Assembly (NCBI GenBank): GCA_947258755.1
Contig: CAMYJO010000020.1
Span: forward strand, 1 to 63,565
DNA: 63,565 nucleotides
Direction of reading: 5' to 3'
Source of the DNA: an uncultured Gammaproteobacteria bacterium
Lineage (GTDB): Bacteria > Pseudomonadota > Gammaproteobacteria > JAADHQ01
Position numbers and translations under genes: made by a program. This document shows positions 3,089-7,880 of this stretch, piece by piece; position 1 is the stretch's first letter; the number at the start of each line of letters is the position of its first letter. A model generated the notes under the pieces. It worked only from the letters and a program-made list of their open reading frames with translations. It had not been told where the DNA came from and ran no database searches.

Positions 3089-3799
3089 TTAGCGGCCGCC
3101 AATCTCGAGTATCTTGGTCTCAATCCAGGCCTCGACTTCCTTGATGATTTCGCTGGAGCTCTTGCCCGCTGGATCAATGGGCTCGCCGATGGCGACGGTG
3201 ATGGTGCCCGGATGCTTGAAAAACTGGCCTTTGGGCCAGAAGTAACCGGCATTATGGGCAATGGGGATAATCTTGTGACCGCTCTTCGCGGCGAGTAAGG
3301 CACCGCCCGGACGGTATTGGGTTTTATCACCGGCCTGAGTGCGAGTCCCCTCTGGAAAAATCATGACACTGATACCATCATCGAGGCGCTTTTTTCCCTG
3401 GTCGATCAACTGCCGCAAGGCCTGTTTTCCGAGCTTGCGGTTGATCGCTATCGGATTGAGCATGGCAACGCCCCAACCGAATATGGGTATCCACAACAGT
3501 TCACGCTTTAACACCCAAACCATCGGTGGCATGAATAATTGATAGGTGATCGTTTCCCAGGTCGACTGATGTTTACTCATGAATATAACCGATTCATTCG
3601 GTATGTTGTCCATACCCTGCACTTTGTAACTCAGTCCACAGGTGACTTTTAGCCACCACAAGTTGTACAGTGGCCAACCCTTGGAGATGATGTATCGAAC
3701 TCGGAACGGAAACACGAAAGAAATGGTCAGTATCGATGTAACGACAATGGTGGATACATAAAAGCCGAGCCAGAATAGAATGGTTCTCAAGGTAGGCAT
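3089..3799 (-). CDS. plsC: 1-acyl-sn-glycerol-3-phosphate acyltransferase (PlsC family)
   Basis: Transfers an acyl group to lysophosphatidate to form phosphatidate at the inner membrane, the second acylation of glycerophospholipid synthesis. One N-terminal membrane segment (about residues 8-30) anchors the protein. The acyltransferase motif appears as KHQSTWET near residues 76-83, an HX4E variant of HX4D seen in this subfamily. FPEGTR, the glycerophosphate-binding motif, lies near residue 147. At 236 residues the length is normal. It is the last gene of the glyQ-glyS-mazG-gmhB-plsC run, six bases after gmhB, an order common in gammaproteobacteria. Confidence 0.9.
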   Translation of the reverse strand: MPTLRTILFWLGFYVSTIVVTSILTISFVFPFRVRYIISKGWPLYNLWWLKVTCGLSYKVQGMDNIPNESVIFMSKHQSTWETITYQLFMPPMVWVLKRELLWIPIFGWGVAMLNPIAINRKLGKQALRQLIDQGKKRLDDGISVMIFPEGTRTQAGDKTQYRPGGALLAAKSGHKIIPIAHNAGYFWPKGQFFKHPGTITVAIGEPIDPAGKSSSEIIKEVEAWIETKILEIGGR

Positions 3800-3805
3800 G
3801 CTAGT

Positions 3806-4339
3806 TTATTGTTCCTGTAACAAATGCTCGGTGAACGCTGCAAGGCTACTGTATACCGGCACAGCGGTTTCGGCTTCTATGTCTTCTACGGTCTCCATAG
3901 TATCCCGGATCAGCACGACTGCGGCATTGACTGCAAGCGCGGCCTGGTATTCGGCATCGGTCGAGACGACCATGGGGACGTCAGCCAGTGATTTATTCAT
4001 TCGTTGTTGCAGGTCTAGTAACAGACCCGGCCGTGGCATACGGCAATCACAATGTTCATCTTCAGCATGTGGACAGAACATGACTGCCTCTAGTTGTGCG
4101 CCTAATAACGACAGCTGCTGTTCCAATTTGTCATGGATGTCATTTAATGCCTGAATAGTTAGCAGACCAGCAGCGATGCCGGGTTGGTTGGAGACAACGA
4201 TGATACGGTAACCATGGCGATACAGTTGGGCGATGGCTTCAAGACTGTCCGGAAAGGGCAAGCATTGCTGTGCAGTTGTAATAGCGCTATCAGTACGCTG
4301 ATTGATGACGCCGTCTATAGCAAGAATGATGAGCTTCAT
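3806..4339 (-). CDS. gmhB: GmhB-family HAD protein, probably catalytically dead
   Basis: The family removes the 7-phosphate from heptose-1,7-bisphosphate in LPS core heptose synthesis. Length (177 aa), the zinc-site residues C89, H91, C97 and C99 (CPH...CDC) and the location between glyS and plsC identify the orthologue. The HAD catalytic motifs are altered. Motif I reads LAIDG rather than LDRDG, so the nucleophilic Asp is Ala7. The motif III Lys of CRKPxPG is Met101. Motif IV reads VSTDAEY rather than VGDxxxD. Motif II Ser50 (SNQPG) is kept. The reading frame is intact, so the protein is made but should not be a phosphatase. It may be a pseudoenzyme or a decaying gene. Confidence 0.85.
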   Translation of the reverse strand: MKLIILAIDGVINQRTDSAITTAQQCLPFPDSLEAIAQLYRHGYRIIVVSNQPGIAAGLLTIQALNDIHDKLEQQLSLLGAQLEAVMFCPHAEDEHCDCRMPRPGLLLDLQQRMNKSLADVPMVVSTDAEYQAALAVNAAVVLIRDTMETVEDIEAETAVPVYSSLAAFTEHLLQEQ

Positions 4340-4350
4340 AGTGCGAGGAT

Positions 4351-4695
4351 TTAATCTCTGAATTCAGAGACCCGTATCCGGCCATTGACCATTTTTGATT
4401 CACGCTTCATTATTTTGTCCATTTTATGCCAGAAGGCCTGTTGCAGATCAAAATCAGCGGAGATGGCGGTACCGAGTAGTAATATCAGCAGGTCAGCGGT
4501 CTCCTCTGCCAGGTCATCCTTACTCTTGCCCTTGGTGACACAGGCGGACATTTCGCCGAGTTCTTCTGCCATCAAGGCAATGCGATAGGTTAGTTCCTCG
4601 CCACCGGTGTTTTTAAAATCATGCTTGTCGTGGAAGGCCTGTACATAACTGAGCATGTCCTGATAGGAGTCCGGATTTAAATCACGAGTGCTCAT
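4351..4695 (-). CDS. MazG-like nucleotide pyrophosphohydrolase
   Basis: A 114-residue all-alpha protein with the MazG-type metal-binding signature: AEELGEM at about residues 43-49 and EETADLLILL at about 64-73, i.e. EExxE followed by ExxD. Such single-domain enzymes hydrolyse non-canonical or damaged NTPs or dNTPs to monophosphates. It sits between glyS (eight bases away) and gmhB (eleven bases), so is co-transcribed with the glycyl-tRNA synthetase genes. Substrate not predictable from sequence. All key acidic residues are present. Confidence 0.85.
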   Translation of the reverse strand: MSTRDLNPDSYQDMLSYVQAFHDKHDFKNTGGEELTYRIALMAEELGEMSACVTKGKSKDDLAEETADLLILLLGTAISADFDLQQAFWHKMDKIMKRESKMVNGRIRVSEFRD

Positions 4696-4703
4696 AGTCT
4701 CTC

Positions 4704-6782
4704 CTATTGTAAGCGCGACAGATCTGCAACGCGTAAAAAGTGATTGCGAAGCACGTTTAACATGGCAAGCCTGTTTGTACGCAATCCTTCATCTTCTGCC
4801 ATGACCATTATCTGATCGAAGAATGCATCAACAGGTTCACGTAGTCCGGCCAGTTCCTTCATTGCCATCTCATATTCCTGATTATTGAATAAGGGTTCGA
4901 GTAAGGGCTCAAGTTCATCAATCTTATTCGCCAGGGTTTTTTCTTCCTCATCCGCGAGAATAAATATATTCCACTTCTCTGGTAGTTCCTGATCGGATTT
5001 TTTGAGGATATTGGAAATACGTTTATTAGCGGCTGCCAGACTTTCCGCCTCAGGTAATTTACGGAATTCTGCTAATGCTTGTAGGCGCATTTCTGCATCC
5101 TGTAAGTTATCCGGCTTCAGGCACAGGACGGCATCAACTGCGTCACGTGCATAGCCTAAATTGATAAAATAGACCTTTAATCGGGCCAGTATGAAATCGT
5201 ATACCAGTGCCGATGTGTCCTCGATGTGGATGGGAACACGCTGATAGCTATAATTTTTGATTGCATTCTTGATGACCATATCAAGATCAAGCTCAAGGTC
5301 CTTCTCTATAATGATTCGCAGCACGCCCAGGGCAGCACGTCGTAATGCAAACGGGTCTTTATCGCCAGTCGGTTTGTGGCCAATAGCAAAGATGCCAACC
5401 AGGGTATCGACCTTATCCGCCAAAGAGACACAAAGCCCGGCTTCTGTAGCCGGTAGCTGGTCACCGGAAAAGCGCGGCATGTAATGTTCATCGATCGCCT
5501 GGGCAACCTCGTCATCTTCACCATCGAGTTGGGCGTAATAGCGCCCCATGATGCCTTGTAAGTCTGGAAATTCGTCAACCATGTTTGTCATCAGGTCGGC
5601 CTTGCACAAGCCGGCTGCCCGTTTTGATTTTTTCACATCCCAGCCAATACTGCTGGCGATGTAGACGGCTAATTCCGAGACGCGCTGCACCTTGTTGAAA
5701 ACACTGCCCAGCTTTTTTTGAAAAACCACGGCCTTAAGGCGTTCGTTGCGATCAAACAGTTTTATTTTTTTGTCCTGTTCCCAGAAAAATTCTGCATCGG
5801 ATAAACGTGGGCGTATGACGCGCTCATTACCTTCACGGACCTTGTCCGGGTCCTTGCTGACAATATTGCTGATGGTAATAAAGTGCGGCATCAGTTTGCC
5901 TTTAGTATCGACTACATGAAAATATTTTTGGTGGCCCTTCATCGCCGAGATCAAGGCCTCGGATGGAACGTCGAGGAAACGCGGATCAAAATCGCCGAGC
6001 ACGGCCTGCGGCCACTCAACCATTGATGTGACTTCATCCAGTAATGCCTCATCGATAACCGCCTGGCCTGATACCTTCTTGGCTATCTCCAGTACCTGAC
6101 CGCGAATGGCCTCATGTCGTGCCTCGAAGTCGGCAATAACATAGGCCTTGGATTCCAGTAGTGGTGCGTAGCTAGCCGGTTCACCTATATAAATAGTGTC
6201 CGGTGCATGAAAGCGGTGTCCGCGTGTTTCCCGACCTGTTTTGACACCGAGGATTTCGGTTTCAATGACCTCATCGCCGAACAGTAGTACGGCCCAGTGC
6301 ACCGGGCGTACAAACTGTTCACTGAGGTCTCCCCAACGCATGCGTTTCGGGATCGGTAAGGCTTCCAGGGCTTTGTGGATGATATCCGGAATCAGTGTGC
6401 TGGCTTGTTCGCCTTTTTGCTCAGAACTATAAGCCAGCCAGCTGCCCTTGTCGGTTTCGATTTTGTCGAGTTCATCAACTTCAATGCCGCAACTGCGGGC
6501 GAAACCTGTGGCCGCCTTGGTCGGACAACCTTCGTCATCAAAGGCTGCGGTGAGTGCCGGGCCGCGGCGTTCCACTTGTTTGTCTTCTTGTTTTTCCTGT
6601 AGTCCCCACACCAGTAATGCCAGCCGACGCGGTGTCGCATATTGCTGAATACCGGCATGGCTGAGCTCGGCGTTTTTGAGTCCCAAGAGGACACCATCAT
6701 GAAAGGCACGGGACAATTTTTTCAATGCCTTCGGTGGTAATTCTTCGGTACCAATTTCTATCAGGAGATCGCGCGTCGTCAT
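4704..6782 (-). CDS. glyS: Glycyl-tRNA synthetase beta subunit
   Basis: This is the tRNA-binding subunit of the bacterial alpha2beta2 glycyl-tRNA synthetase. The 692-residue length is typical, and the N-terminus is the family hallmark (DLLIEIGTEELPPKAL). The C-terminal anticodon-binding region is recognisable (VMAEDEGLRTNRLAMLN near residue 670). The start codon overlaps the glyQ stop by one base (TGATG), implying translational coupling that keeps the subunits balanced. No frameshift or missing segment is seen. Confidence 0.97.
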   Translation of the reverse strand: MTTRDLLIEIGTEELPPKALKKLSRAFHDGVLLGLKNAELSHAGIQQYATPRRLALLVWGLQEKQEDKQVERRGPALTAAFDDEGCPTKAATGFARSCGIEVDELDKIETDKGSWLAYSSEQKGEQASTLIPDIIHKALEALPIPKRMRWGDLSEQFVRPVHWAVLLFGDEVIETEILGVKTGRETRGHRFHAPDTIYIGEPASYAPLLESKAYVIADFEARHEAIRGQVLEIAKKVSGQAVIDEALLDEVTSMVEWPQAVLGDFDPRFLDVPSEALISAMKGHQKYFHVVDTKGKLMPHFITISNIVSKDPDKVREGNERVIRPRLSDAEFFWEQDKKIKLFDRNERLKAVVFQKKLGSVFNKVQRVSELAVYIASSIGWDVKKSKRAAGLCKADLMTNMVDEFPDLQGIMGRYYAQLDGEDDEVAQAIDEHYMPRFSGDQLPATEAGLCVSLADKVDTLVGIFAIGHKPTGDKDPFALRRAALGVLRIIIEKDLELDLDMVIKNAIKNYSYQRVPIHIEDTSALVYDFILARLKVYFINLGYARDAVDAVLCLKPDNLQDAEMRLQALAEFRKLPEAESLAAANKRISNILKKSDQELPEKWNIFILADEEEKTLANKIDELEPLLEPLFNNQEYEMAMKELAGLREPVDAFFDQIMVMAEDEGLRTNRLAMLNVLRNHFLRVADLSRLQ

Positions 6783-7705
6783 CAGGCGGCTCCCTCCTTG
6801 TCTTTCAGCATCGGGAAGCCCAGGGCCTCGCGGCTGTTGTAATATTTTTCTGCAACGGCACGCGACAAGGCACGTATCCGGCCGATGAAGCGGGCACGCT
6901 CGGTGACCGAGATGGCATGACGTGCATCCAGCAGGTTGAAGGTATGTGAGGCCTTCATCATCATCTCGTAGGCGGGTAAAGGAAGATCATTGTCGATCAA
7001 TTTCTGGCTTTCACTTTCGCAACTGTCAAACCAGGTAAACAGGCTATCGATATCGGCATGCTCAAAGTTGTAAGCCGACATCTCGACTTCGTTCTGATGA
7101 AACACATCACCATAGGTGACATCGCCGTCCGGGCCATGGGTCCAGACCAGGTCAAACACACTTTTTACGCCCTGCAGATACATCGCAATACGTTCCAGGC
7201 CGTAGGTGATCTCACCCGTGACCGGAGAACAATCGAGCGAGCCGACTTGTTGGAAATACGTGAACTGGGTAACTTCCATGCCGTTCAGCCACACCTCCCA
7301 ACCCAGCCCCCAAGCTCCCAGGGTCGGTGACTCCCAATTATCTTCGACAAAACGAATGTCATGCACGAGCGGGTCAATGCCAAGCATTTTCAATGAATCC
7401 AGGTACAGTTCCTGTATGTTCAGCGGTGAAGGCTTGATGACGACCTGAAACTGGTAATAGTGTTGCAAGCGATTCGGATTTTCACCATAGCGGCCGTCGG
7501 TAGGCCGTCGCGATGGTTGCACATAGGCGGCACTCCAGGGCTCTGGTCCGATCGAACGTAAAAAGGTGGCGGTATGGAAGGTACCCGCGCCGACCTCCAT
7601 ATCATAGGGTTGCAACAGAATGCAGCCCTGCTCGGCCCAGTAATTTTGTAAGGCCAGTATCAGCCCCTGAAATGTGGAGACATCGACAGATGAATCATTT
7701 GCCAT
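6782..7705 (-). CDS. glyQ: Glycyl-tRNA synthetase alpha subunit
   Basis: Catalytic class II aminoacylation subunit that charges tRNA-Gly with glycine. I place the start at the ATG at 7705 ([16 protein letters not shown]), giving 307 residues, the family's usual size; the open frame extends 74 codons further upstream without homology-like sequence. Signatures are [18 protein letters not shown] and the active-site region [20 protein letters not shown]. It is first in the glyQ-glyS-mazG-gmhB-plsC run and divergent from the gene at 7881, with promoters presumably in the 175-bp gap. Confidence 0.96.
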
Positions 7706-7880
7706 GTTAAATCCCGTTACGACTATTATATAAAGGAATGGATTATAGCCCGGCCGGTACCGGCCATTAAACAGGCATTGGACAAGTATTTGCCATTTAT
7801 TGGTAGAAATTGCCCGTTTGGTGATGATTTTCTCAAGTCGATGAGGATTTCTGTCGACAACATGGATAGAGGCGAGTGTT

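Follow-up and report, generated by a model that had tools for sequence, protein, structure and literature searches.

A GmhB orthologue lacking HAD catalytic residues in a gammaproteobacterial glyQ-glyS-plsC operon, and recurrent altered copies in genomes without hldE

In HAD phosphatases, the aspartate of motif I becomes a phosphoaspartate during catalysis. One of these enzymes, GmhB, acts after the kinase step of HldE and before its nucleotidyltransferase step. The requirement for GmhB is partial even in E. coli and Klebsiella (PMC9302095). Pseudophosphatases such as STYX and MTMR13, which keep a phosphatase fold but lack a catalytic residue, have been reviewed (PMC10211241), and our literature search for GmhB pseudoenzymes or bacterial HAD pseudophosphatases found nothing relevant. 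Here we analyse the gmhB orthologue of an uncultured gammaproteobacterium, located in a 63,565-nucleotide window (the whole stretch of DNA studied). Like active GmhB (NF006506), it occupies the same place in the glyQ-glyS-gmhB-plsC operon as its intact relatives, has the same predicted fold and keeps the zinc site; unlike active GmhB, it lacks the nucleophile, the motif III Lys and the motif IV Asp, and its pathway partners are missing from the genome. STYX and MTMR13 are eukaryotic, have other folds and have active paralogues, whereas the window protein is a single-copy bacterial HAD orthologue that appears to have been inactivated in place, as has happened repeatedly in pathway-less genomes. 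The N-terminal histidinol-phosphatase of HisB (2fpr) belongs to the same HAD-IIIA subgroup and matches the predicted model of the window protein with a Z-score of 18.6; however, the window protein reaches only 44.9 bits against TIGR01261 (cut-off 140), and a histidinol-phosphatase would need the same catalytic residues that are lost here.

The window gmhB reading frame lies at 3806–4339 on the minus strand, as do all features below (the sequence-only reading named no strand, and the plus-strand frame across this interval is riddled with stops). It begins with ATG and encodes 177 amino acids, without the internal stop or frameshift that would mark a pseudogene. The product is a GmhB homologue that matches PDB entries 4pnh and 3l8h (E about 1e-32; 37% identity with 3l8h over 177 aligned residues) and scores 149.5 bits against NCBIfam NF006506, below the curated cut-off of 178. 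The sequence-only reading had described a motif I of LAIDG with the nucleophile Asp replaced by Ala, a Met in place of the motif III Lys, an unrecognisable motif IV, and a preserved zinc Cys/His site and frame, all of which we observed. Codon 7 (4319–4321) is GCT (Ala), leaving D9 alone of the motif I DxD, and codon 101 (4037–4039) is ATG (Met). In the alignment to relatives, residues 124–131 (3947–3970) read VVSTDAEY where motif IV has VGDSLRDL, so that VVSTDAE stands for VGDSLRD and the motif IV Asp is Ser (S126), while the zinc site, C89-P-H91 and C97-x-C99 (4043–4075), is intact. Changes beyond those described earlier are R8I, D15R, S16T, K21T, S53P, R57A, G125V and D130E; among these, residues 15–17 (4289–4297) read RTD where most intact enzymes have DSD, a segment that is changed in most altered copies, and codon 53 (4181–4183) encodes Pro instead of the conserved Ser of TNQSG, as in several other altered lineages. 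Without D7 no phosphoaspartate would form, and the protein is thus predicted to have no phosphatase activity. Lacking the conserved catalytic motifs, the sequence falls under the published definition of a pseudophosphatase (PMC10211241).

Our sample of the window genus consists of four genomes, namely the window genome (G000) and the congeners G001, G002 and G003. Alignment with these close relatives, a check that the sequence-only reading had proposed, showed that G001 GmhB is intact (LDRDG, CRKPKPG, VGDSLRDL), G003 carries D7G, G002 carries D7G and K101I, and the window genome has lost all three motifs (D7A, K101M, D126S). Because two of the three congeners also lack D7, with Gly in both, a sequencing error is ruled out as the source of its loss. 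In a tree of glyS and plsC, the window genome and G002 are sisters, G003 branches next and G001 lies outside, so the simplest history for the genus is a single loss of the nucleophile followed by stepwise erosion.

In the same genomes, HldE (TIGR02198), HldD (over cut-off) and GmhA were found in G001 and in none of the other three, and Glyco_transf_9, the heptosyltransferase family, gave a strong match in G001, one weaker match in G002 and none in G000 and G003; for pathway genes beyond hldE, the search covered the window genus and a few comparison genomes. The LPS locus of G001 comprises a Glyco_transf_9 gene, msbA, an lpxL-like gene, a methyltransferase gene, hldE, hldD, waaA and a second lpxL-like gene, with msbA and lpxL named from a reading of the translations. 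The syntenic locus in G000 and G002 has msbA, lpxL-like, waaA and lpxL-like genes and lacks hldE-hldD. Since G000 is listed as 100% complete, incompleteness is an unlikely cause of these absences. As hldE-hldD are gone from the locus, and gmhA, hldE and hldD occur only in the congener with intact GmhB, the likely answer is that the ADP-heptose pathway is absent from the window genome.

Without HldE, heptose-bisphosphate should be absent as well, leaving nothing for another phosphatase to act on. Of the three options the sequence-only reading had offered, dephosphorylation elsewhere, LPS without heptose or a new role, the first is thus unsupported. The second is favoured, since a genome of listed full completeness has no gmhA, no hldE, no hldD above its cut-off and no gene of the heptosyltransferase family. 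The third may hold, with indirect support from residual purifying selection and repeated retention. The search of that genome which the reading had suggested returned no second gmhB and no gmhA, hldE or heptosyltransferase gene; waaA is present in all four congeneric genomes, so the Kdo step is kept. The window gmhB is the sole full-length GmhB-like match in its genome; two weak partial matches (L002, L003), which by eye are phosphoglycolate-phosphatase-like HADs with DxD present, were rejected as second copies. We consider it very likely that both the activity and the pathway have disappeared.

Among 80 glyS loci surveyed in named genomes, 60 showed gmhB. Besides G002 (L034), catalytic residues are altered at five of these loci: L055 of the isolate Thiohalobacter thiocyanaticus Hrh1 (D9A, K101P), L074 (D7Q, K101T), L094 (D7E, D126N), L107 (D7N) and L113 (D7E, D126H). 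None of these five genomes has hldE over cut-off, and hldE is present in 53 of the 63 genomes checked that have intact GmhB. The glyS and plsC tree contains a second, nested series, with L096 (no hldE, intact GmhB), L107, and then the heavily altered L074 and L094; because L096, sister to the other three, combines an intact site with the absence of hldE, this series suggests that pathway loss preceded residue loss. Catalytically intact GmhB without hldE was likewise seen in G007, G036, G053, L071 and L102, where there may be another GmhB substrate, a recent pathway loss or an assembly gap.

A census of 369 gammaproteobacterial genomes gave a GmhB-like match in 308 and hldE in 260, with 66 genomes having the former without the latter. 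From genomes lacking hldE we examined 53 GmhB copies (three from the window genus and two further sets of 27 and 23) and scored catalytic loss as the absence of D7, D9, K101 or D126. Such loss affects 14 of these 53 copies versus none of 42 from hldE-plus genomes (Fisher p 1.9e-4, a value that takes no account of relatedness, the genomes not being independent points). The hldE-plus copies were chosen as best matches to an altered-copy profile or as nearest relatives, which does not bias the comparison towards the outcome obtained. Most hldE-minus copies (39/53) are catalytically intact. The 14 altered copies span eight GTDB families (f1, f60, f80, f111, f127, f153, f154 and f176), and since f1, f127, f153 and f154 also have intact members, there were probably at least four independent origins. 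Three more hldE-minus copies (L195, L198, L204) look altered too, align less surely and were left out of the counts. Most of the genomes are MAGs without culture, and assembly gaps may account for a few of the hldE absences; their effect would be to blur the association, not to produce it. In the hldE-minus copies L018, L170 (family f51), L166, L178 and L184, the catalytic residues are kept and the conserved D15-S16-D17 is changed (variants WRP, NNT, DLQ and DIG), which may mark the onset of this process or reflect a new substrate.

The predicted model of the window protein has a mean pLDDT of 92.3, an AlphaFold confidence that leans on the alignment, and it superposes on 3l8h with a Z-score of 28.5 and an rmsd of 1.4 Å over all 177 residues, a high-confidence prediction of the GmhB fold. 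Of the 32 zinc-ligand positions in eight altered copies, 31 retain the ligand. In the mildest altered copies (L034, L006, L107), the losses each time include residues 7, 15, 16, 53 and 57, all within motifs I and II or adjacent to them, positions that are expected to line the substrate pocket. The S53P change in TNQSG was seen in the window genus, G192 (L164), family f111 (L193, L194, L196), L107 and L094. The reverse of the window case occurs in Candidatus Competibacteraceae and relatives (L076, L080, L084, L085, L092, L093, L095, L104, L108), where catalytic residues are intact and zinc ligands are replaced (C-D-N-Y/F). Two hldE-minus copies, L192 (G256) and L191 (G205), keep D7, D9, K101 and D126 with zinc ligands A-Y-S-A and C-C-C-C, respectively.

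Taken as a whole, the best explanation, to which we assign a probability of roughly 0.55, is that the window gene encodes a dead GmhB that was born of pathway loss and kept for a non-catalytic role. An ancestor within the genus would have lost the ADP-heptose pathway (gmhA, hldE, hldD, heptosyltransferase), and GmhB would thereby have lost its substrate; substrate-pocket and catalytic residues would then have eroded stepwise, without loss of the reading frame, the zinc site or the fold. The folded protein would still be produced because it binds a partner or ligand in a role linked to the glyQS-gmhB-plsC operon. For this last element, a folded protein still made for a non-catalytic role, we see an even chance. 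We prefer it because many unrelated copies still show amino acid constraint, a zinc site and full length.

Slow decay comes close behind as the main rival, in which GmhB would be a plain relic, useless after pathway loss, whose frame and fold persist because misfolded or truncated products are costly in a translationally coupled operon, or because the loss is too recent. Strong acceleration of the altered copies fits such decay: the gmhB branch of the window genome measures 0.87 against 0.11 for glyS and plsC, about eight times longer, and corresponding values elsewhere are 1.82 against 0.29 and 0.45–0.62 against 0.10. On the window genome branch, a branch model gave an omega of 0.44 with omega = 1 not rejected (p 0.36). 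Given this omega and the long branch, constraint is relaxed and in the window species may have nearly vanished except on the frame, so that decay may be under way there at present. Also in keeping with a relic, the most eroded copies lose many conserved sites, spread widely, and pooled losses at core catalytic positions (31/80) do not differ significantly from those at other conserved positions (90/296; p 0.18), with residues 15–17, 53 and 57 counted among the latter though lost as well.

Pairwise comparisons argue the other way. Omega for gmhB is 0.177 between the window genome and G002 (glyS 0.100, plsC 0.041) and 0.090 between L074 and L094, with synonymous sites close to saturation; two intact-enzyme pairs at similar distance gave 0.046 and 0.049. 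Setting omega to 1 worsened the fit by 24 and 33 lnL units for the two altered pairs, respectively, so dN/dS of 0.09–0.18 between altered pairs is relaxed but far from neutral. In a neutral simulation at the glyS-calibrated distance, each lineage gained about six stops and amino acid identity came to 14%, compared with the zero stops and 50% identity seen. We preferred the pairwise fits and the simulation because some branch lengths ran to saturation in a multi-branch codon model, where two M0 fits differed by 2.5 lnL, probably owing to branch bounds. All 52 hldE-minus census copies checked for length are full length (173–199 amino acids), and together with the nearly complete retention of zinc ligands this speaks against a relic, which we consider doubtful, if clearly the strongest of the alternatives.

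The gene order of the window operon is glyQ-glyS-mazG-gmhB-plsC. The gene for the alpha subunit of glycyl-tRNA synthetase, glyQ, probably starts with ATG and lies at 6782–7708, and glyS (the beta subunit, used as species-tree marker) at 4704–6782; a MazG-domain frame (PF03819, 28.9 bits) follows at 4351–4695, and a plsC-like 1-acylglycerol-3-phosphate acyltransferase gene (PF01553, 68.6 bits) at 3089–3799. As a comparison of the window with L055, L113, L041, L042 and L160 showed, some lineages have the MazG-domain gene separating glyS from gmhB and others lack it; in the window genus it is conserved better than gmhB. The sequence-only proposal of a pseudoenzyme in its native operon is supported, the loss of catalysis being deduced from the residues. 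With 11 nt upstream of gmhB and 6 nt between it and plsC, and with every altered copy whose flanks were checked adjoining plsC and most adjoining glyS too, the frame might be kept purely as a translational bridge from glyS or mazG to plsC while the protein itself is idle. However, plsC comes directly after glyS or mazG in L035, L042 and L078, so such a bridge is dispensable and this reading is improbable, the more so as a bridge needs neither amino acid constraint nor zinc ligands. Least probable by a little is a different enzymatic activity through a rebuilt site, with migrated catalytic residues (known in other pseudoenzymes; PMC10211241) or non-phosphoaspartate chemistry: D9 is kept in the window genome and most altered copies and changes at 15–17, 53 (S53P) and 57 recur in unrelated lineages, but the D7 replacements (A, G, N, Q, E) are chemically unlike one another, the window protein has lost motifs III and IV too, and the alignment of altered copies showed no new residue common to them.

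Returning to the non-catalytic role, we tentatively extend it to the family: GmhB of the glyQS-gmhB-plsC operon could have a second, catalysis-independent function that outlived its heptose role in several gammaproteobacterial families, perhaps at least eight, each time independently. The genomes provide a replicated natural series, from pathway and intact enzyme, through pathway lost with enzyme intact and nucleophile lost, to the whole site lost, showing how an enzyme can turn into a pseudoenzyme in place with no duplicated gene involved. In genomes with altered copies, gmhB would be wrongly labelled by automatic annotation as a heptose-bisphosphatase, and whether GmhB has a hidden role in the glyQS-plsC operon becomes testable. 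If this reading is true, selection keeps a folded GmhB where the pathway has been lost and leaves the active site free to vary.
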